Part shown: piece by piece, positions 9,962 to 29,836 of the stretch
How the letters are laid out: each line of letters begins with the position of its first letter
Numbering within the stretch: position 1 is the stretch's first letter
From: a virus
Virus record (IMG/VR): IMGVR_UViG_3300020183_003577
Coordinates: 1-31,259 of that record
Direction: 5' to 3' (one strand)
DNA length: 31,259 nucleotides
Notes under the pieces: generated by a model
Told to the model about the DNA's origin: nothing
What the model saw: only the letters and a program-made list of their open reading frames with translations
Databases searched by the model: none
Position numbers and translations under genes: made by a program

Positions 9962-11005
9962 ATGATAATAGATTTTAATCGATTTGTAATATTTTATTCA
10001 AATAATTGTTGGATTCTTACCAAAGAAAAAGTTGCATCTTCATATCTGAAGGATAGATTTGAAACTGAATGGTTGGAAGTTGATATAAATAATTTTTCTT
10101 TAGAGATTCATCATATTAATTTTGAACATACACAAAATGCACAAATTTCTAAACAAAATTATGCTGAGATACAAGAAAAATTCGAATCTGATTGGAATGA
10201 CCTGATTTCCAATAACAACAAATCTAATAAATTTATTTTTTTGCTGAGAAATCCAATTAATAAATTCATAACTGGATGGGTACAAGATTCTATATTACGA
10301 AAATTAAATGATGGGTATCGTCAACGAGAATATGAAAGACTTGAGACTATATTCACAAATGATGAAGTTAAATCATTTTCAAATTATATAACCAATAGGA
10401 TAACTAAAGAACAACAATTAGGCCAAATTTATTTTCCAGATGTTGAAGATTTACCATTAAAATATAAAGATATTTTTGAAGAATTTTGTTTTCCAAAAAA
10501 TAATGATTTTTTTAAAAATGACATTCAAACTTATTTAGATTTAACAACAGCAGGACATCCTTCTGAAAATTTATATCTGATATGGAGATTGTGTTTTGGT
10601 AAATCTATAAATTTTGATTGTAGTGATATTCATATAATTGATATAGATTTACAACATTTAGAATTAAGTTTAGGTGAAAAATTTGACATTCGCTTTGTTG
10701 AAAAAAATGTAAATTACAACAAAAGAGGTGAATATTTAAAGAATAGAGCATATAGTTATTTAGCTAAAAATCACAAATGTGTTAATAGTATTTTACAAAT
10801 AGAGATATTATTTTGGTATGAAATTATAAACAAAATATATCCAAAAGAACGATACGATTCAAATATATCTTCATTGTTAAAACCAATAACATTATATAAA
10901 AAAACCTACTTCATACCAGAACATTTAGATTTTTATAATTTTCAAACTCATATGAATTGGTTTACATATGAACCAAAAGTGGTTCATTTAACTTATACGA
11001 ATTAG
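9962..11005 (+). CDS. Sulfotransferase-like protein
   Basis: A 347-residue protein. Near the N-terminus WILTKEKVASSYLKDRF (residues 17-33) resembles the 5'-phosphosulfate-binding loop of PAPS sulfotransferases (K-x-A/G-S-S/T). FIFLLRNPINKFITGWVQD (91-109) resembles the 3'-phosphate-binding segment (R-x-P-x-x-R-x-x-S-x-W), with Lys and Thr where Arg and Ser are usual. The remainder is Asn/Lys/Ile/Tyr-rich and has no other recognised domain. It could transfer a sulfuryl group to a carbohydrate, small molecule or protein, but the acceptor is unknown and activity is uncertain because of the substitutions. It starts 3 bases after rnh, and its TAG overlaps the GTG start of methyltransferase A. Confidence 0.68.
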   Translation: MIIDFNRFVIFYSNNCWILTKEKVASSYLKDRFETEWLEVDINNFSLEIHHINFEHTQNAQISKQNYAEIQEKFESDWNDLISNNNKSNKFIFLLRNPINKFITGWVQDSILRKLNDGYRQREYERLETIFTNDEVKSFSNYITNRITKEQQLGQIYFPDVEDLPLKYKDIFEEFCFPKNNDFFKNDIQTYLDLTTAGHPSENLYLIWRLCFGKSINFDCSDIHIIDIDLQHLELSLGEKFDIRFVEKNVNYNKRGEYLKNRAYSYLAKNHKCVNSILQIEILFWYEIINKIYPKERYDSNISSLLKPITLYKKTYFIPEHLDFYNFQTHMNWFTYEPKVVHLTYTN

Positions 11006-12225
11006 TGGAAAATATTAAAGATTATTTTAAGAAGTTTTATGGAATGACACCATATCTTCGAATTGAAGAAGAAGAGTGGCAGTATATTCTAAAAACATAT
11101 GATAAAGATGAGATTGTAGAAACTCTATCTGAAGTATGTCATACATATCCATTACCCATACCTGTTTATACAAATGTTGAGGTATTAGAGGATTATAAAA
11201 AACTAAAAGGAACTTGGTGGCATGATATTTTAATTGAAGGAGATTGGTTTCCAAGAAATGGTAGAGAAAGTAAATATCCACTTACGTTTGATGGTAAGTT
11301 TATGTACTTTAAAAAGTATACCGTTGGCAATAAAGCATCTAATAAATTCCACGTAGAAAATCGATATAAAGTTGATTGGGTAAGAGGCCCATCCGGTTGG
11401 AGAACGTGGCAGACGGTTGATGGTATTAAAACAATTGTAAGAGCATTCTTTACATTGGATAAGGTACTCACCGATGTAAACATTAATAGTTTAAAAATGG
11501 CAATGAATTTAAGAAAATACGTTGCATCTCAATTTAAACCTAATGTTGCTAAAGCGTTATATGATTATTTTAAATCAGAAAATGTTTTAGATTTTTCTGC
11601 AGGATGGGGTGATAGATTTGCAGGATTCTATACGGCAGAAACTACTAAACATTATGTAGGTATAGACCCTAACTTAAATAATCATCCAAACTATCTTTTG
11701 CAAGAAGAATATTATAAAAAAAATCAAACTTTCTTTGAAGAACCAAAAAAGGCAACATTTATTCCACACCCGGCAGAAGATGTAGATTATTCACAATATG
11801 AAAATTATTTTGACACAATTTTTACATCACCTCCTTATTTTAATACTGAAAGATATTCAGATCATGATACTCAATCTTATTTGAGATATAAAAAAATTGA
11901 TGATTGGAATACTAATTTTTTACATAAGGCATTAAATAAAATGATACCAACTCTTAAAAAAGGTGGAATATTGGCAGTTAATATTTCTGATGTGTATTCT
12001 GCAGTAGATGGGGGTTATGTAGACATAACAAATTCTATGAATGATTTCCTCCATTCTAGGGGTTTAAAATACAGAGGGTGTATTGGTATGGAAATGACAA
12101 AAAGACATAATAGTGGGGGTGCAGGAACGGCCGTATCCGATTATTTTACAGAGGAATCGAAGAAACAAGCTGAAGAAGGTAAAAATCAAGCATTTGGAGA
12201 ACCAATATGGATATGGGAAAGATAA
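11005..12225 (+). CDS. SPPY-motif methyltransferase A (DNA-methylase-like)
   Basis: A 406-residue protein with a GTG start that overlaps the upstream TAG. The start is supported by alignment with methyltransferase C, whose N-terminus matches (DYFKKFYGM against QYFDKFYGM). Motif I (SAM-binding) is VLDFSAGWGDR at 194-204, followed by YVGIDPN. The catalytic motif IV is TSPPYF at 274-279, followed by YSDHDTQSY and a Trp-containing helix. The SPPY class methylates exocyclic amino groups of bases (N4-cytosine or N6-adenine). The roughly 190-residue N-terminal domain precedes motif I, and there is no room for a recognition domain after motif IV, so the target-recognition part is probably N-terminal. 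There is no nearby restriction nuclease. It lies just upstream of the helicase gene. Confidence 0.78.
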   Translation: MENIKDYFKKFYGMTPYLRIEEEEWQYILKTYDKDEIVETLSEVCHTYPLPIPVYTNVEVLEDYKKLKGTWWHDILIEGDWFPRNGRESKYPLTFDGKFMYFKKYTVGNKASNKFHVENRYKVDWVRGPSGWRTWQTVDGIKTIVRAFFTLDKVLTDVNINSLKMAMNLRKYVASQFKPNVAKALYDYFKSENVLDFSAGWGDRFAGFYTAETTKHYVGIDPNLNNHPNYLLQEEYYKKNQTFFEEPKKATFIPHPAEDVDYSQYENYFDTIFTSPPYFNTERYSDHDTQSYLRYKKIDDWNTNFLHKALNKMIPTLKKGGILAVNISDVYSAVDGGYVDITNSMNDFLHSRGLKYRGCIGMEMTKRHNSGGAGTAVSDYFTEESKKQAEEGKNQAFGEPIWIWER

Positions 12226-12257
12226 TTTGGATAATTAAAAAATTATTCGTATCTTTG
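12226..12257 (+). promoter_or_regulatory. Bacteroidota-type promoter P3
   Basis: TTG at 12227-12229, a 20-base spacer ending in TTCG, and TATCTTTG at 12250-12257 (perfect TAnnTTTG). A 6-bp dyad ATAATT/AATTAT (12231-12236, 12241-12246) lies within the spacer, at the same place as in P5. It begins right after the stop of methyltransferase A and leads to the helicase start 17 bases after the box. Confidence 0.87.
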
Positions 12258-12274
12258 TAAAAAATTATAAATAA

Positions 12275-13633
12275 ATGCAAGAAGTAGATACATTACAGCG
12301 ATATGGTCAATCCTTTCAATCAAAGGTAGTATCGGCCCTTATAACTGATAATAAATTTTTAGATACTATATCTGAAATTACTACTACACGTTTTTTTGAA
12401 AGTGAGGCGAACAAGTGGATTGTTGGTGAAATAATTGATTATCACAAAGAATATAGAAAACCACCTACGTTAGATGTATTCAAAGTTAAATTATCCAAAA
12501 TGGATAATGAGATTTTGAAAAAAACTGTAATTGAACAACTTAAACATATTTTTACCCAAGTTGGTAATGTTGATTTGGATTATATCAAAAATGAGTTTAC
12601 TGATTTTTGTAAAAACCAAAACCTAAAAAATGTTATTTTACAATCGGTTGATTTATTAAAGGCAGGTTCTTATGATAGAATTAAGGATTTGGTAGATAAG
12701 GCAATGAAAGTTGGTATTGAAAATGATTTAGGTCACGACTATCTTTTAGATTTTGAAGAAAGAGCATCTGATGTAAAAAGAAATACTGTACTTACTGATT
12801 GGAAACCAATTAATGATTTAATGGACGGAGGATTGGGGCCAGGTGAATTGGCTGTTGTAGTTGCCCCATCGGGTGTTGGTAAGACATGGATACTTACGGC
12901 TTTAGGTGCATCTGCTGTTAGACAAGGACTATCAGTTGTACACTATACAATGGAACTTTCTGAACATTATGTTGGTGCAAGATATGATACTGTATTTACA
13001 CATATTGCATCTTCTCAATTAAAGCAAAAAGTAGAAGAGGTAAAACAAAAGATTAAATCATTAAGAGGTAAACTCCTTATCAAATATTATCCACCTAAAG
13101 GTATAACTGTTAAAAAATTACAATCACATATTGAAAAGATGATTGCATCAGGAAATAAACCTGATTTGATTATTGTGGATTACGCTGACCTTTTACTTTC
13201 ACATTCCAATAAAACTGATTCTACTTACGCAGAACAAGGAGGAGTGTATATTGACCTTCGTGGTATGGGTGGTGAATTAGAAATACCTGTTTGGACTGCA
13301 TCACAAACAAATCGTTCAGCGATAGATTCAGAAGTTATTGAAGCTGATAAGATTGCAGATTCATACGCTAAAGTAATGAATGCCGATTTCATTATGAGTT
13401 GGAGTAGAAAATCAAAAGATAAATTAAACAACACCGCCCGTTGTCATATTATGAAGAATCGATTCGGACAAGATGGTATTACATTTCCTTGTAAAATGGA
13501 TACCAACAATGGGTTTATTGAAGTATATGAAGGAAATACACCTGATGGAATTTTAGCTACGAAAGAATCAGCAAGTGGACAATTGGTACAAAAACAGCTA
13601 CTTATGAAAAAGTATGTTGAAAATATGGGATAA
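12275..13633 (+). CDS. 41: gp41-like replicative DNA helicase (DnaB family)
   Basis: A 452-residue protein (T4 gp41: 475). An N-terminal helical domain (about 1-165) is followed by a RecA-like ATPase core. Walker A APSGVGKT is at 197-204, the catalytic Glu is in TMELSE (Glu227), Walker B LIIVDYADLL has Asp302, and the Gln/Asn sensor motif is VWTASQTNR. A later segment INADFIMSWSRKSKDK-like leads to the H4-type region with KNRFGQDGITF. It is the hexameric 5'-3' helicase that unwinds DNA at the fork and partners the primase. No primase or helicase loader lies adjacent in this window. It is driven by P3 and is followed directly by methyltransferase B (TAATG overlap). Confidence 0.94.
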   Translation: MQEVDTLQRYGQSFQSKVVSALITDNKFLDTISEITTTRFFESEANKWIVGEIIDYHKEYRKPPTLDVFKVKLSKMDNEILKKTVIEQLKHIFTQVGNVDLDYIKNEFTDFCKNQNLKNVILQSVDLLKAGSYDRIKDLVDKAMKVGIENDLGHDYLLDFEERASDVKRNTVLTDWKPINDLMDGGLGPGELAVVVAPSGVGKTWILTALGASAVRQGLSVVHYTMELSEHYVGARYDTVFTHIASSQLKQKVEEVKQKIKSLRGKLLIKYYPPKGITVKKLQSHIEKMIASGNKPDLIIVDYADLLLSHSNKTDSTYAEQGGVYIDLRGMGGELEIPVWTASQTNRSAIDSEVIEADKIADSYAKVMNADFIMSWSRKSKDKLNNTARCHIMKNRFGQDGITFPCKMDTNNGFIEVYEGNTPDGILATKESASGQLVQKQLLMKKYVENMG

Positions 13634-14688
13634 TGCTAAATTATGATTCTTTAACTAAATTTATTGATATTGATCTAATTGATGGGTTGTATGATTATGT
13701 CACAAAAAATATAAGAAAAATTGAAGATATAGATTTTGCAGTTAATACAATATTTCAATATCATAGAAAAAAAGGATTTCCACATTATAATGTTCCAAAA
13801 CATAAACGATTAGAACAACTCAAATCGTTAAAAAGATTTGATGAAAAAACAATTTTAAAAGATGGTAAGTTAGACCAAACAATGCATGGATTATCTCTTG
13901 CATGGTCATACTTTCCACACTGGGTGGAAGTAGAGTGTGGTGGTAGTAAGATGAGACCAATAGATTATTGGAATGATGATGATAAGTTTAAAGAGATAAT
14001 AAAAAAAACTTGGAAGTGGCAATTAAAACATGGAAATGATACATTTACCCTTAATAGATTAAGACAAAACTTTAAAATCTATGGAGGTAATCAATCAGTA
14101 TCAAACTTTCGGCCATCGGTTGCAAAATGGATATATAACACATTTGCTGATAATGGTGTAATATGGGATATGAGTTGTGGATGGGGTGGTAGATTATTGG
14201 GATTTATTTCATCTAATGCAAAAAAATATATTGGAACTGAGCCTTCGACAAAAACATACGAAGGTTTATTACAATTAAATAAAGAACTAAACTTTAATAA
14301 TAAAGAAGTAGAGATTCATAAATTAGGATCTGAAGTTTTTAGACCAGAAAAAGAATCATTAGATTTATGTTTTACATCGCCTCCGTATTTTGATACCGAA
14401 AAGTATTCAGATGAAGAAACTCAATCATATAAAAAATATCCAAATGAAACCGATTGGATTAATGGGTTTTTAAAACAGACAATTAGTAATTGTTATTTTG
14501 GATTAAAGCCTGGTAAAAAAATGCTAATTAATATAGCAAATACTACCAAATATAAAAACATTGAAAGTGAAACAATAAATGTTTCAGAACAAATTGGATT
14601 TAAACACATAGATACTTTATATTTGATTTTATCATCAGTATCAGGTAATGGAAAGAAGTTAGAACCAATTTTTGTGTTTGAAAAATGA
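13633..14688 (+). CDS. SPPY-motif methyltransferase B (DNA-methylase-like)
   Basis: A 351-residue protein whose ATG overlaps the helicase stop (TAATG). Motif I IWDMSCGWGGR lies at about 177-187, and the acidic residue after strand 2 is in YIGTEPS. Motif IV TSPPYF is at 248-253, followed by DTEKYSDEETQSYKKY. A later strand MLINIANTTK matches the N-I-A/S-D strand of its paralogues. The conserved NFRPSVAKWIYN segment before motif I corresponds to QFKPNVAKALYD in A. The N-terminal domain (about 1-155) differs completely from A and C, as expected if it sets substrate choice. It has the same motif order as A. No cognate restriction gene is nearby. Base amino-methylation is inferred from the motif. 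Confidence 0.77.
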   Translation: MLNYDSLTKFIDIDLIDGLYDYVTKNIRKIEDIDFAVNTIFQYHRKKGFPHYNVPKHKRLEQLKSLKRFDEKTILKDGKLDQTMHGLSLAWSYFPHWVEVECGGSKMRPIDYWNDDDKFKEIIKKTWKWQLKHGNDTFTLNRLRQNFKIYGGNQSVSNFRPSVAKWIYNTFADNGVIWDMSCGWGGRLLGFISSNAKKYIGTEPSTKTYEGLLQLNKELNFNNKEVEIHKLGSEVFRPEKESLDLCFTSPPYFDTEKYSDEETQSYKKYPNETDWINGFLKQTISNCYFGLKPGKKMLINIANTTKYKNIESETINVSEQIGFKHIDTLYLILSSVSGNGKKLEPIFVFEK

Positions 14689-14811
14689 AAGTAATATATC
14701 AAAAAATTATTATATACATGAGCATAAATTAGGAAAATATGTAACAATCAAAAGATAAAAAAAAATTTACAAAAAACGATTTTGTTTTTTAATATATACA
14801 ATAGTTATACT

Positions 14812-14835
14812 CACCAACACACTCCTCCGTTGGTG
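14812..14835 (+). other. Leader hairpin upstream of the histone-like gene
   Basis: CACCAAC (14812-14818) and GTTGGTG (14829-14835) form a perfect 7-bp GC-containing stem with a 10-base loop, 29 bases before ATG 14865. No T-tract follows, so it is not a terminator. It may stabilise or regulate the mRNA of the histone/NrdB unit. The upstream part of this 176-base gap (14689-14811) holds no gene. No clear TTG/TAnnTTTG promoter was found in it. Confidence 0.5.
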
Positions 14836-14864
14836 TACAAACAAAACTTAAAAAGGATTAATTT

Positions 14865-15035
14865 ATGGCAAATTCACAAGAACTTTTCGAACAGATGAAA
14901 GAATTGTTTGAGCAATTCGAAAAAGAACACAATGGTAGTACAAAGGCTTCAAAATCAAGAGCACGTAAGGCAATTGGAGAGTTAAAAAAATTAGTAACAG
15001 AATACAGAAAAGTATCAGTAGAAGAATCAAAATAA
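14865..15035 (+). CDS. Histone-H1-like small basic protein (Hc1-type)
   Basis: A 56-residue protein. The N-terminal half is an acidic-amphipathic helix (MANSQELFEQMKELFEQFEKEH). It is followed by a short polar turn NGSTKASKSRARKAIGELKKL and a second helix ending EYRKVSVEESK. This two-helix layout, with K-A-S-K-S-R-A-R-K-A at the turn, matches the short histone-H1-like (Hc1) proteins common in Bacteroidota, which bind DNA and may compact it. A weak Shine-Dalgarno (AAAGGA) precedes the ATG. It has its own leader with a stable hairpin and is followed 11 bases later by nrdB. It could coat phage or host DNA, but DNA binding is inferred from the family. Confidence 0.75.
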   Translation: MANSQELFEQMKELFEQFEKEHNGSTKASKSRARKAIGELKKLVTEYRKVSVEESK

Positions 15036-15046
15036 ATTAGTAAGTT

Positions 15047-16042: not shown

Positions 16043-16059
16043 AATCAAAGTTATATAAA

Positions 16060-16392: not shown

Positions 16393-16396
16393 TAAT

Positions 16397-18181: not shown

Positions 18182-18202
18182 ATTTATAAATTGGAGAAAA
18201 AA

Positions 18203-18469: not shown

Positions 18470-18470
18470 T

Positions 18471-19391
18471 ATGGTTTTTTTCCATTTTGATTCTGATAAT
18501 AAATCTGCAAGTTCTCAACTACTTTCAAATGAAAATTTTCATAAAGCAAAAAAAGTACTGATAGCTGCAGGTGATAGCTGGACGAATCAACTTAAAGAAA
18601 CTTATGGAAATGATAGAAGTTGGGTTCCTGAATTTGCTAAATTTAGAGAATATGATTTTATTATTATATCAGCCGCTAGAGGAAGTTCTGGAACTCAAAT
18701 TTTTTCAAATTTAGTAAATTTAATGACCGGTGCAAATCTATCAGAAGATAGTTTTTTTAACGGGTTTTCAGATAGTTGGTTAAACTATTATTTTTTTAAA
18801 GAAAAAAAAGTAGATGTAATTGTTCAATGGACATCTATTATTAGGGATTATTCTGAATTTTCAGCATGGTATAAACCATATACTTTCGCATCTTTACCTG
18901 ATTTATCAAATGATACATTTAAAAAACAAATGTACGATGAATATATTTTTGAAATTCTTAATGAAAAGTATTATTCATATAAACTTCAAATTTATAGTTG
19001 GCAACTTCAAAAGTATTTTGAAAAATGGAATATACCTTACTACTTTTGGATGGGGTTTTGTGATTTAGTTCCAGAAGATATTGAAGAAACTGATATGGAT
19101 ATAAGAAAATTTTTAAATAAAGATAGGTGGTTTAATTTATATGAAAAACCAAATAATATGGCTGATTATCTTTATTATACTGAAAAAAATACTTTACCTA
19201 AAAGATTAAAAGGGGTATTAACAGAAGGTGGGCCTGTGGGATTATTAAAAAACTTTTCAAATTCCTTACTCAATCTTTTTAAACAAAATGAAAAAAATAC
19301 TTCATTAGAACATACTTTATTTTGTAATGATTTACATCCTTCTGTTGAAGGAAATAAAATAATTGCAAATTTACTTAATGAAAAATTTTGA
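18471..19391 (+). CDS. SGNH/GDSL-hydrolase-like protein
   Basis: A 306-residue protein. Block I is AAGDSWT (Gly34-Asp35-Ser36, nucleophile Ser36) and block II Gly is in SAARGSSG (Gly71). Block III is replaced by VIVQWTSIIRDYSEF (Trp120, Arg125), a variant often seen in phage-encoded SGNH proteins. Block V is NDLHPSVEGNK (Asp287, His289). The spacing is that of a full SGNH domain. Such enzymes remove acyl groups from carbohydrates or lipids. The substrate is unknown; candidates are cell-surface glycans or a phage component. No signal peptide is visible, so it acts in the cytoplasm or in the virion. It starts 1 base after the thioredoxin stop, and its end overlaps promoter P6. Confidence 0.78.
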   Translation: MVFFHFDSDNKSASSQLLSNENFHKAKKVLIAAGDSWTNQLKETYGNDRSWVPEFAKFREYDFIIISAARGSSGTQIFSNLVNLMTGANLSEDSFFNGFSDSWLNYYFFKEKKVDVIVQWTSIIRDYSEFSAWYKPYTFASLPDLSNDTFKKQMYDEYIFEILNEKYYSYKLQIYSWQLQKYFEKWNIPYYFWMGFCDLVPEDIEETDMDIRKFLNKDRWFNLYEKPNNMADYLYYTEKNTLPKRLKGVLTEGGPVGLLKNFSNSLLNLFKQNEKNTSLEHTLFCNDLHPSVEGNKIIANLLNEKF

Positions 19392-19432: not shown

Positions 19433-20665
19433 ATGTATTTACAATATTTTGATAAATTTTATGGAATGAAACCATATCTTTATATTGATAATAAAGAATG
19501 GGAGTATATTAAAAACAATTTTAATAGAGATGATGTAAAAGAATCTTTAGCAAAGGTTGCAATGACGTATAATATACCATATGCGGACATAACTGAAAAA
19601 GAAGCAAGAGATGAATATTTAAAACTTAAAGGTATCCGTTGGAATGAATTATTTACCGAAGGAGAGTGGTTTCCAAGAAAGGCCAGCGAATCAAAATATC
19701 AGCTTACCTTTCAAGGTAAGCAACAATATATAAGAAGATTAAATACTGGAAATATTGCATCAAATTTCTTCCAACAAGCAAATCGTTGGAGTGTTGATGG
19801 CACAGTTTCACCTGGACCTAAAAGAACATGGGAAACATACGATTTTATGGTAACATTGATGGGTGGATTATACACACTTAAAATGGAAGATGTTAGTAAA
19901 AATTCTTTAAGAGTATGTTTAAGTTTAAGAAAATACATCTGTTCTCAATTTAAACCTAATGTTGCAAAAGTACTTTATGATTATGTAAAGGCTCAAAATG
20001 TTTTGGACATATCTGCAGGTTGGGGAGATCGTTTATGTGGTTTTTTTGCAAGTGAAAACGGCCAACATTTTGTTGGTGTTGACCCTCGTAAAGAAAATCA
20101 TCCAATTTATAGACAACAAGCAGATTTTTATACTAAACACAATGGTTGGTTTGAAACTGAAAAGAAAGCAACTTTTTATTGTTCACCCGCAGAAGATTTA
20201 GATTTTTCAGAATACAAAGATTATTTTGATATTGTATTTAGTTCACCTCCGTATTTTAATGTTGAACGATATTCGTATGATGATACACAGAGTTGGGTAC
20301 GATATAAAAATATAGATAAGTGGAATGAGTTATTTTTACATAAAACCATTTCTAATGTTTGGCCTACTATTCGTAAAGGTGGGTATTTAGCTATAAACAT
20401 TGCTGATGTTTACGCGACTTCGAAGGGAGAGGGAAGAAGTTATCAAGAAATTACAAATCCTATGAATGATTACATTAAATCATTGGGTGATTCTAAATAT
20501 GTTGGGTGTTTGGGAATGGAGATGGCTAAAAGACCTGGTTCTGCTGGAGCTGGTATGATAATAGAAGGTGATGAAGAAAGATATACTGATGAAGCAAAAA
20601 TAAAAGCTGAAGAGGCAGAAGGTAAAACCTTTTGTGAACCTGTATGGGTATGGCAAAAAATATAA
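19433..20665 (+). CDS. SPPY-motif methyltransferase C (paralogue of A)
   Basis: A 410-residue protein colinear with methyltransferase A over the whole length (for example FYGMKPYLYI against FYGMTPYLRI, EGEWFPRKASESKY against EGDWFPRNGRESKY, SQFKPNVAKVLYDY against SQFKPNVAKALYDY). Motif I VLDISAGWGDR is at 190-200, with VGVDPR after strand 2. Motif IV SSPPYF is at 270-275, followed by YSYDDTQSWVRYKN. The strand YLAINIADVY and the end KRPGSAGAG are also shared. The N-terminal middle region (about 95-150) is the least conserved, so it may recognise a different target. Amino-methylation of a base is inferred from the SPPY motif. It is P6-driven, and its end overlaps a small HTH gene. Confidence 0.8.
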   Translation: MYLQYFDKFYGMKPYLYIDNKEWEYIKNNFNRDDVKESLAKVAMTYNIPYADITEKEARDEYLKLKGIRWNELFTEGEWFPRKASESKYQLTFQGKQQYIRRLNTGNIASNFFQQANRWSVDGTVSPGPKRTWETYDFMVTLMGGLYTLKMEDVSKNSLRVCLSLRKYICSQFKPNVAKVLYDYVKAQNVLDISAGWGDRLCGFFASENGQHFVGVDPRKENHPIYRQQADFYTKHNGWFETEKKATFYCSPAEDLDFSEYKDYFDIVFSSPPYFNVERYSYDDTQSWVRYKNIDKWNELFLHKTISNVWPTIRKGGYLAINIADVYATSKGEGRSYQEITNPMNDYIKSLGDSKYVGCLGMEMAKRPGSAGAGMIIEGDEERYTDEAKIKAEEAEGKTFCEPVWVWQKI

Positions 20666-20966: not shown

Positions 20967-20974
20967 TTATAATT

Positions 20975-21898
20975 GTGAGCAATCCAACAGCAAAATTTGG
21001 TAATAAAACGCATACGCAAGTATTACCAACACATTTAGATATACCAATTAAAGAGCAATTCGGATTTTTTCCAACATCCGTAATTAAACCTACAAATGAA
21101 AGCAAAAAGAAGTGGAAAGATGTAGCATATTTTAACGATGGCGAGATTGATGTTAGAAAAACCAGTTCAGGAAATGATGCAAGTGGTGTACAAAAAATGT
21201 CAGAGTTCCACGCAGGTCTTTGTGAAAATATCGTAAAGTATTGGTCAATGAATGGTAGTCGTATTGTAGACCCATTCGCTGGTAGAGTAACTAGAGCAAC
21301 TGTCTCATCTATGTTAGGTAGAGAATATTACGGATACGAAATAACAACAAATACTTATAATAGAGCATTGGAGCATTTTAAAAAACACAACATAAATCCA
21401 ACATTGTATAATGGTGATGGTACATTGTTAAGTGAAACCAATGATGAATTTGCAGACTTGGTTATGACTTGTCCACCTTATTTTAATATTGAAAAATATG
21501 AAAGTTGTGATGGACAGTTAAGTGACATAAATGATTATAGTAAATTTATGGAAATGATGAACACTACTATTGAAAATTGTTTTAGAGTATTAAAACCAGG
21601 CGCGTTTTGTGTATGGGTAGTAGCAGATTTTAGAAAGAATATGCAACTCATTCCATTCCAGTCCGACCTTACTCAAATGTTTATGAAAAATGGTTTTATT
21701 AATTACGATTTAGTAGTTATGGAAAATATTTCACCATGGGCTAGTATGGCAATCGCACAGGCGGCCTACAAACGATACACATTTAAAGTACATGAATATG
21801 TGATGGTATTTAAAAAACCAGGTGAATACATAGTGCCCGATTATTGTAGTATGGATAAACCAGAAGTGAAATCGGTACAAAACTTTTTTTCCTTTTAA
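20975..21898 (+). CDS. PPY-motif methyltransferase D (divergent subfamily)
   Basis: A 307-residue protein with a GTG start; the first in-frame ATG lies near residue 75, just before motif I, so GTG is preferred. Motif I is IVDPFAGRVTRA (about 97-108), the common D-P-F-x-G form, unlike the DxSxGWGxR of A, B, C and E. YYGYEIT carries the acidic residue after strand 2. Motif IV is TCPPYF (165-170), with Cys in place of Ser, followed by NIEKYES. The strand VWVVADFRK and the C-terminal HEYVMVFKKPG complete a standard amino-MTase fold. It probably methylates an exocyclic amino group of DNA. Only about 95 residues precede motif I, so its recognition region must differ from the other four. It ends the P6 unit. 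Confidence 0.78.
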   Translation: MSNPTAKFGNKTHTQVLPTHLDIPIKEQFGFFPTSVIKPTNESKKKWKDVAYFNDGEIDVRKTSSGNDASGVQKMSEFHAGLCENIVKYWSMNGSRIVDPFAGRVTRATVSSMLGREYYGYEITTNTYNRALEHFKKHNINPTLYNGDGTLLSETNDEFADLVMTCPPYFNIEKYESCDGQLSDINDYSKFMEMMNTTIENCFRVLKPGAFCVWVVADFRKNMQLIPFQSDLTQMFMKNGFINYDLVVMENISPWASMAIAQAAYKRYTFKVHEYVMVFKKPGEYIVPDYCSMDKPEVKSVQNFFSF

Positions 21899-21927
21899 AA
21901 AATTTATATATGACAAAAAAACAATTA

Positions 21928-21959
21928 TTTGGTAAATTCAAATTTTTTTCGTATCTTTG
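21928..21959 (+). promoter_or_regulatory. Bacteroidota-type promoter P4
   Basis: TTTG at 21928-21931, a 20-base spacer ending in TTCG, and TATCTTTG at 21952-21959. It lies 14 bases before ATG 21974, so the transcript leader must be very short. It drives the unit that ends with DNA polymerase. Confidence 0.86.
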
Positions 21960-21973
21960 TATAAAATAATTAT

Positions 21974-22216: not shown

Positions 22217-22227
22217 ATTTTAAAACT

Positions 22228-22887
22228 ATGATAAATCGTTACAATGAAGTTGAGTTACAATCAAACTATAATAAGTTTATTGAAGCTCTGAAAAAATCGT
22301 TAAGTGGAGAGCGATTGGAAAAATTACTCCAAATGTACTCAATGGATGAGTTGGGGCCTAATTTAATGTTATCTCCTGCAAGTGGAAATATTAATTATCA
22401 CAACGCATATGAAGGCGGATATATTGACCACGTTTTAAACGTAGCAAGAAATTCACTTCGTATGATGAAGTTATATCAAGAAGCAGGTGGTGTTGTTGAT
22501 TTTACACAAGAGGAATTGCTTTTTTCTGCATTCCATCATGATTTAGGAAAATTGGGAAGTAAAGGAAAATTGCATTATGTAGAAAACCCATCAGATTGGC
22601 ACGTTAAGAATCAAGGAAAAATATATATTAGTAATCCTGAATTAACATATTTTACTCATACTGATAGAACATTTTTTACTTTGCAAGAATATGGTATTCA
22701 ATATTCTGAAAAAGAATATTTTGGTATTAAACTTACCGATGGTTTATACGATGAAGATAATGAAAAATATTATAAAGTTTTTGATACATCTAAATTTCTA
22801 AAATCAAATATACAATTTTTACTTCATTGGGCAGACCACATGAGTACTTGTATTGAAAGAGATAAGGAAATGAAAGCTCCATTTTAA
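22228..22887 (+). CDS. HD-domain phosphohydrolase
   Basis: A 219-residue helical protein. The HD metal site is visible as His68 in GGYIDHVLNVA, His104-Asp105 in AFHHDLGKLG, and Asp203 in LLHWADHMST, in the order H...HD...D of the superfamily. A segment of about 55 residues between the HD motif and the last Asp (including YVENPSDWHV and YFTHTDRTFF) lengthens the domain compared with short HD nucleotidases. HD proteins hydrolyse phosphoesters, for example dNTPs, nucleoside monophosphates or cyclic nucleotides; the substrate cannot be told. It lies 3 bases before the asparagine-synthetase-like gene and shares its transcript with DNA polymerase, so nucleotide or signal metabolism is plausible. 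Confidence 0.85.
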   Translation: MINRYNEVELQSNYNKFIEALKKSLSGERLEKLLQMYSMDELGPNLMLSPASGNINYHNAYEGGYIDHVLNVARNSLRMMKLYQEAGGVVDFTQEELLFSAFHHDLGKLGSKGKLHYVENPSDWHVKNQGKIYISNPELTYFTHTDRTFFTLQEYGIQYSEKEYFGIKLTDGLYDEDNEKYYKVFDTSKFLKSNIQFLLHWADHMSTCIERDKEMKAPF

Positions 22888-22890
22888 TTT

Positions 22891-24345
22891 ATGTGTGGAA
22901 TAATTGGTGGAAATAATTATAATTCTGAAACCATAGAATCTGGTTTAAAAAAAATAATTCATAGAGGTAGAGATAATTCAACAATTGAAAAAGTTGGAGA
23001 TTTCTACTTTGCTCATAATAGATTATCTATTCAAGATTTATCAGATTCAGCTAATCAACCATTTTGGAACGAAGAAAAAAACGTTTGTTTAGTTTATAAT
23101 GGTGAATTGTGGGGTAGTAATCTTACATCTGAATTAAAAACTAAAATCAATATTCCATTTAGAACATCATCTGATACTGAAATAATTCTTAATGCTTATT
23201 TAGAGTTTGGTATTGAATCGTTTAAAGATTTAGATGGAATGTTTTCTTTTTGTATTATTGATACTAGAATATCAAAAGTTTATTTAGTGAGAGATTATAT
23301 TGGTGAACTTCCATTTTGGTATTCAATTGATAAAATGACAAATAAAATATCATTTTGTTCAGAAAAGAAAGGATTACCACTTTCAGAAATATATGAAAAA
23401 AGTGTGAACACCGTTTATCCAGGAACTTATATTGAGTATGATTATGATTCATTAAATCATAAAATAAAAACGTATTATAAAATTCCAAATCAAATAATAA
23501 ATGATGATAGAGATACGATTATTAAGAATATAAGAATTTTATTAGAAAAGGCAGTAGAGGCAAAAATGATTTCAGATGTACCTATTTGTACTATTTTAAG
23601 TGGAGGTATCGATTCTGTTATATCAACATATTTGTTATCAAAGAAAGTACCAAATTTACAGGCATTCGTTGTATCTATGGGTGAGGGTGATGGTGTAAAT
23701 GATGATATTAAATATGCCAGAATTGCAGCTAAAGAGTTTGGTGTAAAATTAAATGAAATTATTCTTACCGAAAAGGATGTAATTGATTCTATTGAGGAAA
23801 CACTTTACGTTATTGAACAGGCTAGATGGCAAAATGTAGGTTCAGCAATTGCTCAAATAGCATTAGGTAAGAAGATAAATGAGATGGGATATAAAGTTGT
23901 TTTTAGTGGTGACCTTTCCGATGAAATTTGGGGAAGTTATGGTCATATTCAAGCATTTTATTACACACCAGAATCATACGATTTAGCTAGAAGAAAGTTG
24001 GTAGAAGATGTTCATAAAACAAACTTCTTAACTACCAATCAATCTATAATGTGGGGTGGTACTGTTGAAATTCGTACTCCATATAGTTGGAGACCGTTTG
24101 TAGAATACTCTCTTAATATTCCACCACTTTATCAGAAAGAAAATGGACACATGAAACCATTGTTAAGAGAAGCTTTCAACGGTGAAATTTCTGATGAACT
24201 TTTATGGAGAAAAAAAGTATTCTTTGCTCAAGGTGCTAAAACCGCTGAATTAGTTGAAAAACGAAAGAATGAAATGAAACAAAAACTTAAACAACTATTT
24301 CAATATAAAGATAGTTTGAATATAAAAAAGTTTTGGGATGCTTAA
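22891..24345 (+). CDS. asnB: Asparagine-synthetase-like glutamine amidotransferase (AsnB family)
   Basis: A 484-residue protein (E. coli AsnB: 554). The glutaminase domain has the N-terminal nucleophile Cys2 (MCGIIGG) and the expected Arg44 (NRLSIQD), NGE at 70-72 and Asp95 (SSDTE). The ATP-pyrophosphatase domain has LSGGIDS at 236-242, then SGDLSDEIWGSY and a C-terminal LLWRKKVFFAQGAK segment. All catalytic motifs are intact, so it should use glutamine ammonia and ATP to amidate a carboxylate. The true acceptor may be aspartate or another acid, such as a glycan or a base intermediate. Its stop overlaps the next gene's start by 8 bases, coupling it to a GNAT-like protein. Confidence 0.9.
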   Translation: MCGIIGGNNYNSETIESGLKKIIHRGRDNSTIEKVGDFYFAHNRLSIQDLSDSANQPFWNEEKNVCLVYNGELWGSNLTSELKTKINIPFRTSSDTEIILNAYLEFGIESFKDLDGMFSFCIIDTRISKVYLVRDYIGELPFWYSIDKMTNKISFCSEKKGLPLSEIYEKSVNTVYPGTYIEYDYDSLNHKIKTYYKIPNQIINDDRDTIIKNIRILLEKAVEAKMISDVPICTILSGGIDSVISTYLLSKKVPNLQAFVVSMGEGDGVNDDIKYARIAAKEFGVKLNEIILTEKDVIDSIEETLYVIEQARWQNVGSAIAQIALGKKINEMGYKVVFSGDLSDEIWGSYGHIQAFYYTPESYDLARRKLVEDVHKTNFLTTNQSIMWGGTVEIRTPYSWRPFVEYSLNIPPLYQKENGHMKPLLREAFNGEISDELLWRKKVFFAQGAKTAELVEKRKNEMKQKLKQLFQYKDSLNIKKFWDA

Positions 24346-24862
24346 TATTATAAAAATAAAAGAAGAAGGTGATGAAATGAATAAAGTTATAGAAGAGTCT
24401 ATGGCGATTATTAATTTATATCCTGAAATTTTTCCACATTTATATAAACAAGGATTTAAATTAGTTGGTAGAATTAAAAAAGGAAATTTGATTTTGCAAG
24501 ATGGTGTAATTATAACATTTACGCAATATACAAATGGTGGTAAACTTTCTCCTAATGCAAAAACAATAAAAAAGGCAAAAGATTTTATAATTCATCAGAT
24601 TGCTTCAGACCAATCACAAAAAGGAGCAACAAAAAAAGTTTTAGATAAGTTTGTAGAATATTGTAAATCAAAAGGTGCAGGTAATATACTCTTAACGGTT
24701 AGAGCCTTTAATGAAAAGGCTAGAAAATTTTATGAAAGATATGGGTTTGAATTTGATTCTGATATTAATTGGAACTCAAAACAAACTGGAACTATACCTG
24801 GTGTAATTTATAGATTAAAGTTAGAAAAAATTAAAAGTAAAAAATTCTTTACTTGTAGTTAA
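24338..24862 (+). CDS. GNAT-fold acyltransferase-like protein
   Basis: A 174-residue protein whose ATG 24338 overlaps the upstream stop; a second ATG at 24377 follows GGTGATGAA. The C-terminal half shows the GNAT pattern: a strand (DFIIHQIASD), the cofactor loop and helix QSQKGATKKVLDKFVEYCKSKG, then NILLTVRAFNEKARKFYERYGFEF with the typical N-x-x-A-x-x-F-Y-x-x-x-G-F. The canonical pyrophosphate loop (Q/R-x-x-G-x-G/A) is weak (QKGA). The N-terminal half is not recognised. Such proteins acylate small molecules, proteins or, in Mom of phage Mu, modify adenine in DNA. Tight coupling to the AsnB-like gene suggests a joint pathway, by inference. Confidence 0.78.
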   Translation: MLNIIKIKEEGDEMNKVIEESMAIINLYPEIFPHLYKQGFKLVGRIKKGNLILQDGVIITFTQYTNGGKLSPNAKTIKKAKDFIIHQIASDQSQKGATKKVLDKFVEYCKSKGAGNILLTVRAFNEKARKFYERYGFEFDSDINWNSKQTGTIPGVIYRLKLEKIKSKKFFTCS

Positions 24863-24865
24863 AAT

Positions 24866-27382
24866 ATGGCATATCAAAACATATATTATCAAAGAGAAAG
24901 AAATCTTATACATCTTTGGGATGATAAATTGGGCTATAGATCATATCCGTATTCACGATATGCGTACGAAAAAGCATTAAAGGGTGAATATGTTTCAATA
25001 TATGGTGATAGATTAACTAAAATTTATAAGTTCACAAAAGATGATCCTACATTATTTGAATCAGATGTTGCTGAAACTACCAGAGCATTAGTAGATGCTT
25101 ATTCAGAATCCGATGACCCATCGACTGGTCATATTATTCTTACTTACGATATTGAGTGTGAAATGATAAGTGGGTTACCTGATCCAGAAAGGGCAGAAAA
25201 TGAAATAACTTCTATAGCATTTCATGACTCAGCTACGAATCAATATTGGGTTCTTATTTTAGATAAAGACGGTGTAGTAAAACAAAAACAAACCGAAAAG
25301 GCAACAATTATTCCTTTTAAAGATGAGAGAGATTTACTATTAAAGTATTTGGATTTATACGAATATATAAATCCATCAATCGTAACAGGTTGGAATATCG
25401 ATTTTTTTGATACTCCAATGTTATATAATAGAATTAAAAGAGTATTGGGTGAAAGACATGCTAATAGATTGTCACCAATAGGTGAATGTTTTTGGTCACC
25501 ATATCGTAAGAGATATTTTATGGCAGGTGTTTCTTATTTGGATTATATAACTCTATACAAATATTATAATTATGGAGAACTTCCAAACTATCGATTAAGT
25601 ACTGTTGCTCAAATTGAATTAGGTCGAGGTAAAATAGAATATACCGGCAATTTAGACCAATTAATGAAAGATGATATTGAAAAGTTTATTGAATATAATC
25701 TTACAGATGTTGAATTAGTAGTATCATTTGATAAAAAATTAGAATTCATTGATTTATGTAGAAATATCTGTCATACTGGACACGTTCCTTATGAAGATTT
25801 TGTTTATTCATCTAAAGTATTAGAAGGTGCTCTATTAACATATCTTCGAAGAAAAGGATTGGTTGCACCAAATAAACCTGCAGATAGACAGGAAAAAATG
25901 CAAGAATTGAGAGATAATAATGAAGAAAAATTTATTGGTGCGTATGTAAAAGACCCAATTGTTGGTAAGTATGATTGGATTTATGACTTGGACTTAACAT
26001 CTCTATATCCATCAATCATTATGACTCTAAACATTTCACCTGAAACCAAAATAGGTAAAATTTTAGATTGGGATGCCAATAAATTTATGAAAGGAGAAGT
26101 GGATTATTACCAAATTGGTGAGGAAAGAATTAGTAAAGAAAACTTACGAAAGTATTTAGATGAATCACAATATAGAATTGCATCAAATGGGGTTCTTTAT
26201 TCATCAGATAAAGTTGGTTGTATTCCTGGTATATTAGATTTGTGGTTTCAAAAAAGAGTTGAATATAGGCAATTAGAAAAAAAGTATGGTAAAGATGGCG
26301 ATATGGAAAAATATGCCTTTTACGGCAAAAGGCAGTTGGTTCAAAAAATTCTACTTAACTCTCTTTATGGTGTTCTTGGTCTTCCTGCCTTTAGGTTTCA
26401 CGATATTGATAATGCTGAAGCTGTTACACTCACAGGACAAACTGTTATCAAGAGTACGGCGGAAATGGCGAACATTAAATACAACAAAGAGTTAGGTACA
26501 AAAAATGTTGATTCAAACATCTACATAGATACTGATTCGGTATTCTTTTCAGCAGTTCCTCTTATGGATAAAAGGTATCCAAATTGGAGAAATGAAGAAC
26601 AAGATACTATTGCAGGTTATGTTGATGGTATTGCCGGAGAAGTTCAAGATTATCTAAATAATTTCTACAATATACTTTCAGTAAAGGTATTTAATGTTCC
26701 AGCTGATAAACATCGTTTTGAAATTAAAAAAGAGTTTGTTGCAAAAGCTGGATTGTGGGTAGCAAAGAAAAGATATGCTCAATGGATTATTATGAATAAT
26801 GGTATTCCAATGGATAAGTTAGATGTAAAGGGATTGGATGTTAAAAGGTCATCTTTCCCAAAGGCATTTCAAGATATTATGGCAGAAGTTCTTATATCAA
26901 TTCTACGAGGCGAAACCGAACAACAAATATCAGATAAAGTTCTTGCATTCAAAAAGAAAATGACAGAATATGATGTTAAAGATGTTGCTAAAAATTCAGC
27001 AGTAAAAGAACTTACTAAATATATGGGTAAAAAAAGAGCACGATTTCAAGTTGAAAAAGGAACTCCTGCTCACGTTAAGGCAGCAATTGCGTATAATGAT
27101 TGTTTAATACATTTTGATTCTCCTTACAAGTACACACCAATGGGAAATGGTGATAAAGTAAAATGGGTGTATTTAAAAGATAATCCGTTAGGTTTAGAAG
27201 GATTGGCATTTACTGGATATCAAGATCCTCCAGAGATTGAAAATTTTATCAAAACTTATGTAGATTACAATAAGATTTTTGAAAGAGAATTGAAAGGTAA
27301 ATTACAAGATTTCTTTACCGCAGTTGGTTGGGGAGAAGTGGTATCAGAACAAAGAACAGCTGAAAAATTTTTTAGTTTTTAA
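24866..27382 (+). CDS. 43: gp43-like family-B DNA polymerase
   Basis: An 838-residue protein (T4 gp43: 898) with all proofreading and polymerase motifs. Exo I is DIECEM (Asp95, Glu97), Exo II GWNIDFFDTP (Asp179) and Exo III YNLTDVEL (Tyr277, Asp281). Motif A is DLDLTSLYPSI (Asp376), motif B KILLNSLYGVLG (Lys494) and motif C YIDTDSVF (DTDS 555-558). The C-terminus ends in ERTAEKFFSF-like sequence, fitting a short clamp-binding tail. It is the replicative polymerase and works with gp45, whose gene follows after promoter P5. The frame has no intein, intron or homing endonuclease insertion, unlike many phage polymerases. It starts 3 bases after the GNAT gene. Confidence 0.97.
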   Translation: MAYQNIYYQRERNLIHLWDDKLGYRSYPYSRYAYEKALKGEYVSIYGDRLTKIYKFTKDDPTLFESDVAETTRALVDAYSESDDPSTGHIILTYDIECEMISGLPDPERAENEITSIAFHDSATNQYWVLILDKDGVVKQKQTEKATIIPFKDERDLLLKYLDLYEYINPSIVTGWNIDFFDTPMLYNRIKRVLGERHANRLSPIGECFWSPYRKRYFMAGVSYLDYITLYKYYNYGELPNYRLSTVAQIELGRGKIEYTGNLDQLMKDDIEKFIEYNLTDVELVVSFDKKLEFIDLCRNICHTGHVPYEDFVYSSKVLEGALLTYLRRKGLVAPNKPADRQEKMQELRDNNEEKFIGAYVKDPIVGKYDWIYDLDLTSLYPSIIMTLNISPETKIGKILDWDANKFMKGEVDYYQIGEERISKENLRKYLDESQYRIASNGVLYSSDKVGCIPGILDLWFQKRVEYRQLEKKYGKDGDMEKYAFYGKRQLVQKILLNSLYGVLGLPAFRFHDIDNAEAVTLTGQTVIKSTAEMANIKYNKELGTKNVDSNIYIDTDSVFFSAVPLMDKRYPNWRNEEQDTIAGYVDGIAGEVQDYLNNFYNILSVKVFNVPADKHRFEIKKEFVAKAGLWVAKKRYAQWIIMNNGIPMDKLDVKGLDVKRSSFPKAFQDIMAEVLISILRGETEQQISDKVLAFKKKMTEYDVKDVAKNSAVKELTKYMGKKRARFQVEKGTPAHVKAAIAYNDCLIHFDSPYKYTPMGNGDKVKWVYLKDNPLGLEGLAFTGYQDPPEIENFIKTYVDYNKIFERELKGKLQDFFTAVGWGEVVSEQRTAEKFFSF

Positions 27383-27399
27383 TATGAATGATTCATATT
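27381..27399 (+). repeat. Inverted repeat in the 43-45 intergenic region
   Basis: AATATGAAT (27381-27389) and ATTCATATT (27391-27399) are perfect 9-bp arms around one base. It overlaps the polymerase stop codon and lies 32 bases upstream of promoter P5. A 7-bp hairpin with a 5-base loop is possible in RNA, but it is all AT-rich apart from one pair and has no T-run immediately after it. A protein-binding site is as likely. Confidence 0.45.
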
Positions 27400-27430
27400 T
27401 CTCAATTCGTAAAATATATTTTTAAAATAA

Positions 27431-27462
27431 TTTGGATAATTCATAAATTATTCGTATATTTG
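27431..27462 (+). promoter_or_regulatory. Bacteroidota-type promoter P5
   Basis: TTTG at 27431-27434, a 20-base spacer ending in TTCG, and TATATTTG at 27455-27462. A 6-bp dyad ATAATT/AATTAT (27436-27441, 27446-27451) sits in the spacer exactly as in P3. It drives the clamp and clamp-loader unit, starting 22 bases before ATG 27485. Confidence 0.87.
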
Positions 27463-27484
27463 TATAAATTTTAAATTAAACTGT

Positions 27485-28198
27485 ATGGAAAAACAAAAAT
27501 TAAATCGTTTCGTAAGCAAGTACAATCTTGCAGGATTAGTAGAATCCGTAAAATGGGAATCAAAGGATGGTTCATTAAACACTTCATTCATTTCTGATGA
27601 TAAGTCAGTTTTAGGTTCAGTTACACTTAAAGAGTTTGAATCAACAAATGCAATATTAGGTGTGTATGATACATCAAAACTTTCAAAAATGTTGTCTACA
27701 TTAGATGATGATATTGAATTTTCTATTCAAGAAGTGGATAAAAAATCAGTATCTTTAAAGTTCAAAGATAAATCTACATCTGTGAACTATATGCTAGCTG
27801 ACCTTTCAGTTATTCCAAATGTTCCAGATTTGAAACAACTACCAAAATTTGATATTGAAATTAAATTAGATTCTAATTTTATTAACAAATTTATTAAAGC
27901 AAAAAGTGCTTTGGCAGATGAAAACAACTTTACTTTTACTTGTAAGAGTGGTAAGGGACAAATCGTATTGGGTCATTCTAACATCAATACTAACCGAATT
28001 TCAATTGATGTTGATTGTAAGTGTAATGGTGATGTAGAACCAATTTCTTTTTCAGCAACGTATCTTAAAGAGATTCTTGTTGCAAATAAAGAGGCATCCG
28101 ATGCAACTCTTAACATTTCAACACAAGGATTATCACACATTCATTTTGAAATTGACCAATATGTTAGTGATTATTATCTTGTAGAAATCCAGTCATAA
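27485..28198 (+). CDS. 45: gp45-like sliding clamp
   Basis: A 237-residue protein (T4 gp45: 228). The sequence has the two-domain clamp pattern: FVSKYNLAGLVESVKWE opens the first domain, the central linker region is SVNYMLADLSVIPNVPDL, and the second domain runs from about residue 120 to the final strand SDYYLVEIQ. Lys residues are spread on the helices expected to line the DNA channel. It forms a trimeric ring that tethers gp43 to DNA and in T4 also activates late transcription. Identification rests on overall pattern, length and position before gp44 and gp62, since clamps lack catalytic motifs. Confidence 0.9.
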   Translation: MEKQKLNRFVSKYNLAGLVESVKWESKDGSLNTSFISDDKSVLGSVTLKEFESTNAILGVYDTSKLSKMLSTLDDDIEFSIQEVDKKSVSLKFKDKSTSVNYMLADLSVIPNVPDLKQLPKFDIEIKLDSNFINKFIKAKSALADENNFTFTCKSGKGQIVLGHSNINTNRISIDVDCKCNGDVEPISFSATYLKEILVANKEASDATLNISTQGLSHIHFEIDQYVSDYYLVEIQS

Positions 28199-28201
28199 TT
28201 A

Positions 28202-29836
28202 ATGAGTAAGTACTTTTACGAAAGAAGTAAATTTTCCGAATTTAAATCCAACACATCTTATCATCGGTTGTTAGAAATGACCGATGATGAGTTTATTGTT
28301 TGGGCTAAACTATTGCGTAAAGAAGTCACTAACCAATGGGATATTAGTGGAACTCCTCCTGTAATTGGTAAAGATGAAAAAAGTATCATTGAAAACTTCA
28401 AAAAACTTAAATCAAATCCAGCTGATTATTTGGAAAAAGATTTAAGTGGTGATGATGAATCATTGGGTATTATTCAAAACTTTAACAAAGATGCATCAGT
28501 TGTAAATCAGTTTTTTCCAACAATGTTAAAAACTAAAATAACAACTGGTAAATCTGCAGATGGTGGGTTATCAATCTACGATCATTTTGCTGACCCTAAT
28601 CTTGAAGAAACATTTGTAAAGATTATGAGAAGGGCGGTAAAAAGGGATTCAATGTATTCTTGGTCAAAATCAATTGTTGATAAAAAAGATGAAAATCCTT
28701 TTTGGAATGGACAAGGTGCGATAGATTTCATAAAAGATATACACAATGGAAATGTATTCATTGGAGAATGGTCTAATTGTCAAATTTGGATTTCAAAAGT
28801 AAACACCAGAACAATTGAAAATTATGGAACATTCAACAAAGAATATATTGGTCATGGTAATTTGTATTTAACTGCAACACAAGTACAACAACTCAAAAAT
28901 GAAGGTTTTTTAACAAAAACACAACTATCAAACATTAATAGAATAGAAGAATCACATACATCTGATACTGGAAATGTACAACATTATGTATATCAAATCA
29001 GATGGTATAATAAAACCGATGGTATTTTTCCAAAAATTCTACAAGTATTTCGTTTGAGTTGTGGACAACCCGCCGTAAACTTTCCTGCATTGACTGCTAA
29101 ATGGATTTACGAAAACTATACAAATCATATTGATCAAAAAGAACCTTTGGTAATATATGATTCTTCATCTGGATGGGGTGGTAGAATAATTGGTGCAATG
29201 AGTACTCGTAAGAAAGTACACTATGTAGGTACTGACCCGAATCCTGATAATTTTATTAATGAGTTGGGTATATCAAGATATGAATATGTTGCAAAATTCT
29301 ATAATGATAAATGTGTTGATGATTATTCAGAAAAACTTACTCAATTCTTTGAAGTTAAAAAGCAAGGAAATACATTCGAACTATTTCAGGATGGTTCGGA
29401 GTTAATATCAAATAATCCAATATTTCAGAAATATAAAGGTAAATTAGATATTTCATTTACATCACCGCCTTACTTTAATAGAGAACAATATTCACAAGAT
29501 GAAAAACAATCATTTAAGGCGTATGGTGAATATGATGATTGGAAGGATAATTTTTTACGCCCTACATTAACAACTATTTATGAATATCTTAAAAATGATA
29601 GATATATTCTTTGGAATATCGCAGATATTAAAATTGGAGAAAATACTTATTATTCATTAGAACAGGATTCAATTAATATTCTAAAAGAATTGGGGTGTGA
29701 ATATAAAGGTAAAATTAAAATGTTGATGACACGAATGGTAGGATTAGACCCTTCAAAAACTGGAATCAAAAATTCAGTTGAATATGAAGATAAAGTATAT
29801 AAATTTGAACCTATATTTGTATTTCATAAAAAATAA
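28202..29836 (+). CDS. SPPY-motif methyltransferase E, inserted between clamp and clamp loader
   Basis: A 544-residue protein, the largest of the five. Motif I YDSSSGWGGR is at about 319-328, followed by YVGTDPN. Motif IV TSPPYF is at 420-425, followed by YSQDEKQSFKAY. The strand YILWNIADIK and the end YKFEPIFVFHK match B. The conserved segment before motif I is NFPALTAKWIYENY. About 315 residues precede motif I: a helical Lys/Glu-rich N-terminus, then GEWSNCQIWISKVNTRTIENYG and a Tyr-rich stretch, with no recognised domain; this part probably recognises the target. About 90 residues separate motif I from motif IV, with an insert relative to B. It starts 3 bases after gp45 and ends 11 bases before gp44. 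Base amino-methylation is inferred. Confidence 0.78.
   Translation: MSKYFYERSKFSEFKSNTSYHRLLEMTDDEFIVWAKLLRKEVTNQWDISGTPPVIGKDEKSIIENFKKLKSNPADYLEKDLSGDDESLGIIQNFNKDASVVNQFFPTMLKTKITTGKSADGGLSIYDHFADPNLEETFVKIMRRAVKRDSMYSWSKSIVDKKDENPFWNGQGAIDFIKDIHNGNVFIGEWSNCQIWISKVNTRTIENYGTFNKEYIGHGNLYLTATQVQQLKNEGFLTKTQLSNINRIEESHTSDTGNVQHYVYQIRWYNKTDGIFPKILQVFRLSCGQPAVNFPALTAKWIYENYTNHIDQKEPLVIYDSSSGWGGRIIGAMSTRKKVHYVGTDPNPDNFINELGISRYEYVAKFYNDKCVDDYSEKLTQFFEVKKQGNTFELFQDGSELISNNPIFQKYKGKLDISFTSPPYFNREQYSQDEKQSFKAYGEYDDWKDNFLRPTLTTIYEYLKNDRYILWNIADIKIGENTYYSLEQDSINILKELGCEYKGKIKMLMTRMVGLDPSKTGIKNSVEYEDKVYKFEPIFVFHKK

Follow-up and report, generated by a model that had tools for sequence, protein, structure and literature searches.

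The window analysed here is a complete IMG/VR record (IMGVR_UViG_3300020183_003577, a linear fragment of 31,259 bases) whose T4-like replication block carries five methyltransferase-like genes, A to E, together with an asparagine-synthase-type gene (ASN). On balance, C and E, with A as a paralogue, are probably DNA-directed S-adenosylmethionine (SAM) enzymes of a DNA-hypermodification cassette that also comprises ASN, a GNAT acyltransferase and perhaps an HD-type protein. The simplest reading of B and D is that they are ordinary DNA methylases. G-numbers denote the records, and L-numbers the loci, with which the window was compared. The genes concerned are, in map order:

A, 11005..12225, + strand: SPPYF SAM-dependent DNA-methylase-like gene, GTG start, 406 amino acids (aa); paralogue of C
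B, 13633..14688, + strand: SPPYF DNA-methylase-like gene of a separate lineage, 351 aa
C, 19433..20665, + strand: SPPYF protein, 410 aa; class-I SAM fold predicted by AlphaFold2
D, 20975..21898, + strand: PF01555 DNA methylase with TCPPYF, GTG start; outside the A/B/C/E family
HD, 22228..22887, + strand: HD-type metal-dependent phosphohydrolase-like protein that adjoins ASN or a pyridoxal-phosphate (PLP) enzyme in relatives
ASN, 22891..24345, + strand: asparagine-synthase-type amide synthase with a GATase domain and a PP-loop
GNAT, 24338..24862, + strand: acyltransferase whose gene starts within ASN, with an overlap of 8 bases
E, 28202..29836, + strand: SPPYF protein, 544 aa, with a large conserved N-terminal region

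All five methylase-like reading frames are open at these coordinates, as the first-pass annotation had them, and the T4-like replisome block that it placed around them is confirmed by family matches to a gp32-like single-stranded DNA-binding protein, a 5'-3' exonuclease, a DnaB-type helicase, a family-B polymerase, a sliding clamp, an AAA clamp-loader and the phage clamp-loader A subunit. C and D are followed by HD, ASN and GNAT, and then by the polymerase, the clamp and E.

ASN is linked to the core methylases and to a small set of partner enzymes in viral relatives. In the gene calls of loci fetched with methylase queries, ASN adjoins C, with GNAT or a PLP enzyme coming after it. The set of distinct ASN proteins longer than 400 aa numbers 63; the partner within three genes is GNAT in 36, PLP in 27 and both in none, and a core methylase lies within the same distance in 39 of the 42 complete contexts. 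Since sampling by methylase queries could bias this linkage, loci fetched with ASN alone were examined, and 18 of 19 have the order ASN-GNAT-C, with C two genes after ASN, its usual place in relatives. PLP-fetched loci have a thymidylate-synthase-like (TS-like) gene, then ASN or a GATase-less variant of it, then PLP, with C or E nearby in most. The window and its large relatives make up 15 records, of which 12 have a single asparagine-synthase gene, always ~1-6 kb from a C or E gene. In complete contexts C lies within three genes of the partners in 75% of cases, A in 40%, E in 21% and B in 11%, against 8-57% for background genes, of which such genes as the clamp or thioredoxin reach up to 46-57%. 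Linkage inside the replisome block may thus be only shared synteny. At 11%, B is ruled out as a cassette member.

Unrelated contexts are stronger evidence of linkage than synteny in the replisome block; the bacterial loci have little in common with the phage block beyond the enzyme set. E, TS-like, ASN and PLP genes, in some cases with HD, stand in this order in 12 loci distant from replisome genes; short TS-like calls of 152-169 aa are ASN fragments and were discounted. The bacterial genomes are of Ignavibacteria/Kapabacteria type, and their E-like proteins are ~35% identical to E of the window. A bacterial operon in L375 (2109-7739, minus strand) encodes a ParB-like protein, E, a TS-like protein (266 bits against the phage TS-like profile), a PP-loop ligase (32% identical to the phage variant) and a radical SAM enzyme (1e-15). 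This operon is a compact version of the cassette and is suited to expression. L374 carries E, a FemAB-like gene, PLP and Dam, as does L379, where E is split into two frames, while L335 has E-FemAB-like-PLP and L336 has E-PLP-Dam. The label 'ParB-like' was given by eye in L335 and L375, where the proteins have no Pfam match. GNAT and PLP as strict alternatives everywhere are ruled out, since GNAT/FemAB-like and PLP genes occur together in L335, L374 and L379. E-like queries from L336 and L335 gave no match among the viral contigs.

ASN matches PF00733 at 4e-44 and E. coli AsnB at 1e-43. It has a GATase domain with the N-terminal nucleophilic cysteine (Cys2), the NGE motif and the PP-loop motif SGGxDS (here SGGIDS); these catalytic motifs are intact, and the enzyme is therefore probably active. 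ASN proteins of GNAT-type loci, including that of the window, carry SGDLSDE at a site that is SGEGSDE in the aligned PLP-type and TurkishDelight versions, a change that may mark an altered substrate. ASN is homologous to the amide ligases of the CmoA/CmoX/CmoY DNA pathway described in 2025. CmoY of phage S-B43, of the asparagine-synthase family, ligates glycine to 5-carboxymethylcytosine in DNA, and for a second cluster of ligases, which have a glutamine-amidase domain, the prediction is that they use ammonia (PMC12783734). The GATase-less ASN variant (c202) matches the S-B43 asparagine synthase at 2e-5. The best cultured-phage match of the window ASN is gp124 of Streptomyces phage TurkishDelight, between a dcm-type C5-methylase and a CmoA-like gene, so TurkishDelight is likely, from its gene content, a cultured carrier of the ammonia-using CmoY variant. 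The stretch gp121-gp125 of this phage (L369) comprises two ParB genes, the dcm-type methylase, the GATase-type asparagine synthase and the CmoA-like gene. A related synthase of Achromobacter phage Motura lies within a 7-deazaguanine cluster, and cyanophage S-SCSM1 has an asparagine synthase among glycosyltransferases; not every phage asparagine synthase therefore need act on DNA. The S-SCSM1 cluster, and the glycosyltransferases found further downstream in relatives, would fit a role of ASN and GNAT in making a surface or virion glycan, unconnected with the methylases. This is very improbable: in these viruses no glycosyltransferase adjoins ASN, whose neighbours are C, GNAT or PLP, TS-like, polymerase and clamp genes.

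The PLP enzyme belongs to phrog_7093, and its sole matches among 50,697 phage records are in M6-like phages. This M6-type PLP gene is found in the PLP-type relatives and not in the window, which has GNAT instead. In M6-like phages it is the PLP member of the cassette that hypermodifies thymidine: radical SAM, PLP and aGPT-Pplase genes are listed for this group in the SN1 paper (PMC9476957), and in M6 itself the gene has the aGPT-PPlase locus on one side and a gene annotated as 'photolyase' on the other. The TS-like protein matches CMP 5-hydroxymethylase (4e-6) and PF00303, and PF00303 occurs only in PLP-type records. The PALP family was found neither in the window nor in the GNAT-type records G000, G010, G020 and G025. 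Some viruses (L006, L131, L177) have an additional gene between the ASN/TS-like gene and the PLP gene, which is D-2-hydroxyacid-dehydrogenase-like (PF02826).

The genes and their families, the intact ASN motifs and the repeated linkage in separate contexts are direct results; we infer DNA as the substrate of the cassette, and likewise the nature of the handle, the order of the steps and the product. C and/or E would put a small handle on a base of the phage DNA, ASN would amidate a carboxylate on that handle with ammonia from glutamine, and GNAT would acylate an amine. Other viruses would use the PLP enzyme and the TS-like protein in place of GNAT. The aim would most likely be to hide phage DNA from host nucleases. 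An unusual base was a side alternative of the first-pass annotation, and for C and E it fits better than plain methylation because AsnB-type, GNAT, PLP, TS-like and radical-SAM enzymes are linked to them. The handle may be the amino-acid-bearing part of SAM (for example 3-amino-3-carboxypropyl), or another carboxylate-bearing group, transferred by C and E to an exocyclic amine of DNA, which we think unlikely; that a single handle of this kind supplies both the carboxylate for ASN and the amine for GNAT or the PLP enzyme is similarly doubtful. Aminocarboxypropyl transfer would account for the clustering of amide, acyl and PLP chemistry at these loci. It would add a third route by which amino-acid chemistry is fixed on DNA, the other two being hydroxymethyl-pyrophosphate and Cx-SAM (the product of the synthase CmoA). 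The active-site motifs of C and E carry no mark of it.

A to E each contain one copy of [ST][SC]PPYF, which is found in none of the remaining called genes of the window; a scan at the DNA level gave four SPPYF-type sites, and the reversed-pattern control gave none. A, B, C and E share the motif I D-x-S-x-G-W-G-[DG]-R and Y-S-x4-Q-S, as the first-pass annotation had it. The F-x-P-x-x-A-K segment that it placed before motif I reads F-P-A-L-T-A-K in E: of this segment, F, A, K and Y are invariant in all four, and the P is not. A core profile built from these four scores its own members at E-values of 1e-94 to 1e-118 and D, the only independent protein, at 5e-12. All five match phrog_12517. With PF01555 (cut-off 26.7), A (28.2) and D (69.6) score above the threshold and B (24.5) just under it, while C and E have no match. 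The motifs and library matches thus uphold a SAM-dependent DNA-methylase-like family with a common core inside the replication block, and what characterises N4-cytosine/N6-adenine (N4C/N6A) methyltransferases, a class-I SAM fold with SAM motif I and a motif IV of the form (S/D/N)PP(Y/F), is present here. Together with weak matches to Type II methylases, and with B and D having no special partners, this agrees with the main rival, a serious one that we judge somewhat unlikely: all five would be ordinary N4-cytosine or N6-adenine DNA methyltransferases with their own targets, acting against restriction, and ASN, GNAT and PLP would be unrelated metabolic neighbours. What speaks against plain methylation by all five is that the same enzyme set accompanies C and E in unrelated contexts, down to ~35% identity, that one C and one E are the usual complement, and that their N-terminal regions are conserved.

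A and C align along their whole length with ~50% identity over 407 residues, and similarity among A/C, B and E is confined to the core (~29-34% identity). A, B, C and E therefore represent three N-terminal architectures, and not the four different N-terminal domains first supposed. In a tree of 40 core domains, E forms one group (support 97/93), A and C form another (98/97) and D lies outside (98/96), while B-like rows are dispersed around the base and include a main clade. By this tree the lineages of A/C, B and E are separate and old, and their age rules out a recent expansion in this phage. Relatives have 1 to 4 core copies per record, a few weak matches included; B or A is variable, and one C and one E are the full set in several large contigs (G010, G013, G016, G021, G025). 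Mean conservation, in a coarse test, is 0.63 in the N-terminal 150 residues of C/A against 0.66-0.73 in the core, and 0.75 in residues 1-160 of E. The N-termini of C/A and E are thus kept across diverse viruses, unlike variable target-recognition domains under a restriction arms race. The earlier idea of an expanded family that installs several sequence-specific marks against many restriction systems is weak in view of the old lineages, the usual single C and E, and the conserved N-termini. In L323 and L328, from Ignavibacteria metagenome-assembled genomes and probably prophages, a B-like methylase with a long N-terminal extension adjoins terminase-like genes. A ParB fusion of these B-like proteins was suggested by eye, and Pfam gave no confirmation.

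The AlphaFold2 models of C (confident; mean predicted local distance difference test, pLDDT, 90.7; predicted TM-score, pTM, 0.89) and E (fair; pLDDT 78.0, pTM 0.69) are class-I SAM folds. Their closest PDB neighbours are tRNA/rRNA methyltransferases and small-molecule methyltransferases, with CmoB lower; the whole models of C and E reach TM-scores of ~0.3 and ~0.2, and for C the VIA Z is ~15 across ~190 residues. DNA methyltransferases are not among the listed structure matches of C and E, which excludes nothing. A structural comparison pointing to a non-DNA substrate had been named beforehand as evidence against DNA methylation. Run for C and E, it does place RNA and small-molecule enzymes at the top, yet class-I fold rankings are non-specific. 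Deciding the substrate by fold was therefore dropped: the two models resemble many class-I SAM enzymes at low whole-model scores, and a predicted fold of this kind settles neither substrate nor donor. That the cassette acts on free nucleotides or RNA (such as host tRNA), with C and E as RNA- or nucleotide-directed SAM enzymes, is quite improbable. The top ranking of tRNA/rRNA and small-molecule O-methyltransferases for C, and the TS-like and HD proteins as nucleotide enzymes, are consistent with it; against it are the non-specific ranking, the fact that the relatives by sequence are DNA methylases, and, in bacteria, the presence of ParB-like genes and of Dam methylases beside E.

Several observations weigh against a hypermodification cassette. 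The cassette remains a prediction from genes. The catalytic motifs of C and E are the same as in the plain-methylase-like B, and give no sign of a donor other than methyl. The window has no TS-like, PLP or CmoA genes; G023 (170 kb) has core methylases and neither asparagine synthase nor PALP, and asparagine synthase is absent from G009 and G022. Synteny within one virus lineage inflates most of the counts, and E at 21% resembles the background, adjoining ASN/PLP only in islands and bacterial genomes.

If the cassette does modify DNA, widespread aquatic phages, probably of Bacteroidota, carry a hypermodification made by amino-type SPPY enzymes and an amide synthase, through a pathway that does without the handle-making enzymes of both known amide/amino-acid pathways. 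This would be a new phage DNA chemistry with a concrete, testable gene set, and would account for phage asparagine synthases, GNATs and PLP enzymes beside DNA polymerase. It would also caution that an SPPY gene does not always stand for a methylation mark. The literature search, with subscription papers mostly outside it, found no description of this cassette, and gave nothing on flavobacterial T4-like phages or on this set of enzymes.

Other genes of the window include a 347-aa protein at 9962-11005 that is sulfotransferase-like by eye and has no match in Pfam or PHROG. The gene at 18471-19391 is SGNH/GDSL-hydrolase-like by eye, also with no Pfam or PHROG match, and lookalikes follow C in relatives L009, L012 and L104. 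In 38 related loci there is a gene of ~900 aa for a SusC/TonB-dependent receptor with Pfam plug and barrel domains, often near E or clamp-loader genes of the virus, so that an outer-membrane receptor is encoded inside a phage replication block; those with the receptor near E include L164, L165, L170, L190, L196, L221 and L229.

Two known routes to hypermodified bases were searched for and dropped. CmoA-dependent carboxymethylation was set aside as no CmoA was found in 16 records (the window and 15 relatives of up to 289 kb), some of which may be fragments. CmoX, an SPPC C5-methyltransferase, is not among A to E, which are SPPYF/CPPYF enzymes; the other genes of the large relatives were not scanned for it. 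The hydroxymethyluracil/aGPT-PPlase route was dropped as well: aGPT-PPlase (PF18724) and HMUDK_hel (PF18723) were both found in the M6 positive control and in neither the window nor any of 14 relatives, where fragmentary records may hide a copy.

Compared with N4C/N6A DNA methyltransferases (PF01555; phrog_12517), the SPPYF genes share a motif X-like segment, SAM motif I and the S/T-SPPYF motif IV. They differ in having the order I then IV, a G-W-G motif I and large N-terminal extensions, and in that C and E score no PF01555 match. ASN resembles asparagine synthetase B (PF00733 and GATase_7; 1ct9) over its full length, with Cys2 and SGGxDS intact, and differs in a shorter, divergent C-terminal part. 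The CmoA/CmoX/CmoY pathway of Synechococcus phage S-B43 (PMC12783734) likewise places a phage SAM-type DNA enzyme beside an asparagine-synthetase-type amide ligase; the glutamine-amidase domain of its second ligase cluster matches the ASN layout of the window, and ParB-domain proteins are nearby. The present cassette differs from it in having no CmoA, an SPPY amino-type enzyme instead of the SPPC C5-methylase, and GNAT or PLP partners. Yang et al. report that a preliminary search found no candidate N6 or N4 carboxymethyltransferases tied to CmoA (PMC12783734). As in Pseudomonas phage M6, where thymidine is hypermodified by way of a hydroxymethylase, a kinase, aGPT-PPlase, radical SAM and PLP enzymes, there is a homologous PLP enzyme in many relatives, with a TS-family enzyme and an HD protein, and a radical SAM enzyme in the L375 operon; unlike in M6, aGPT-PPlase and HMUDK_hel were not found, and the genes there instead encode an amide synthase and SPPY enzymes. 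The cassette departs from a defining feature of CmoX/CmoY and of M6 alike and is therefore assigned to neither.

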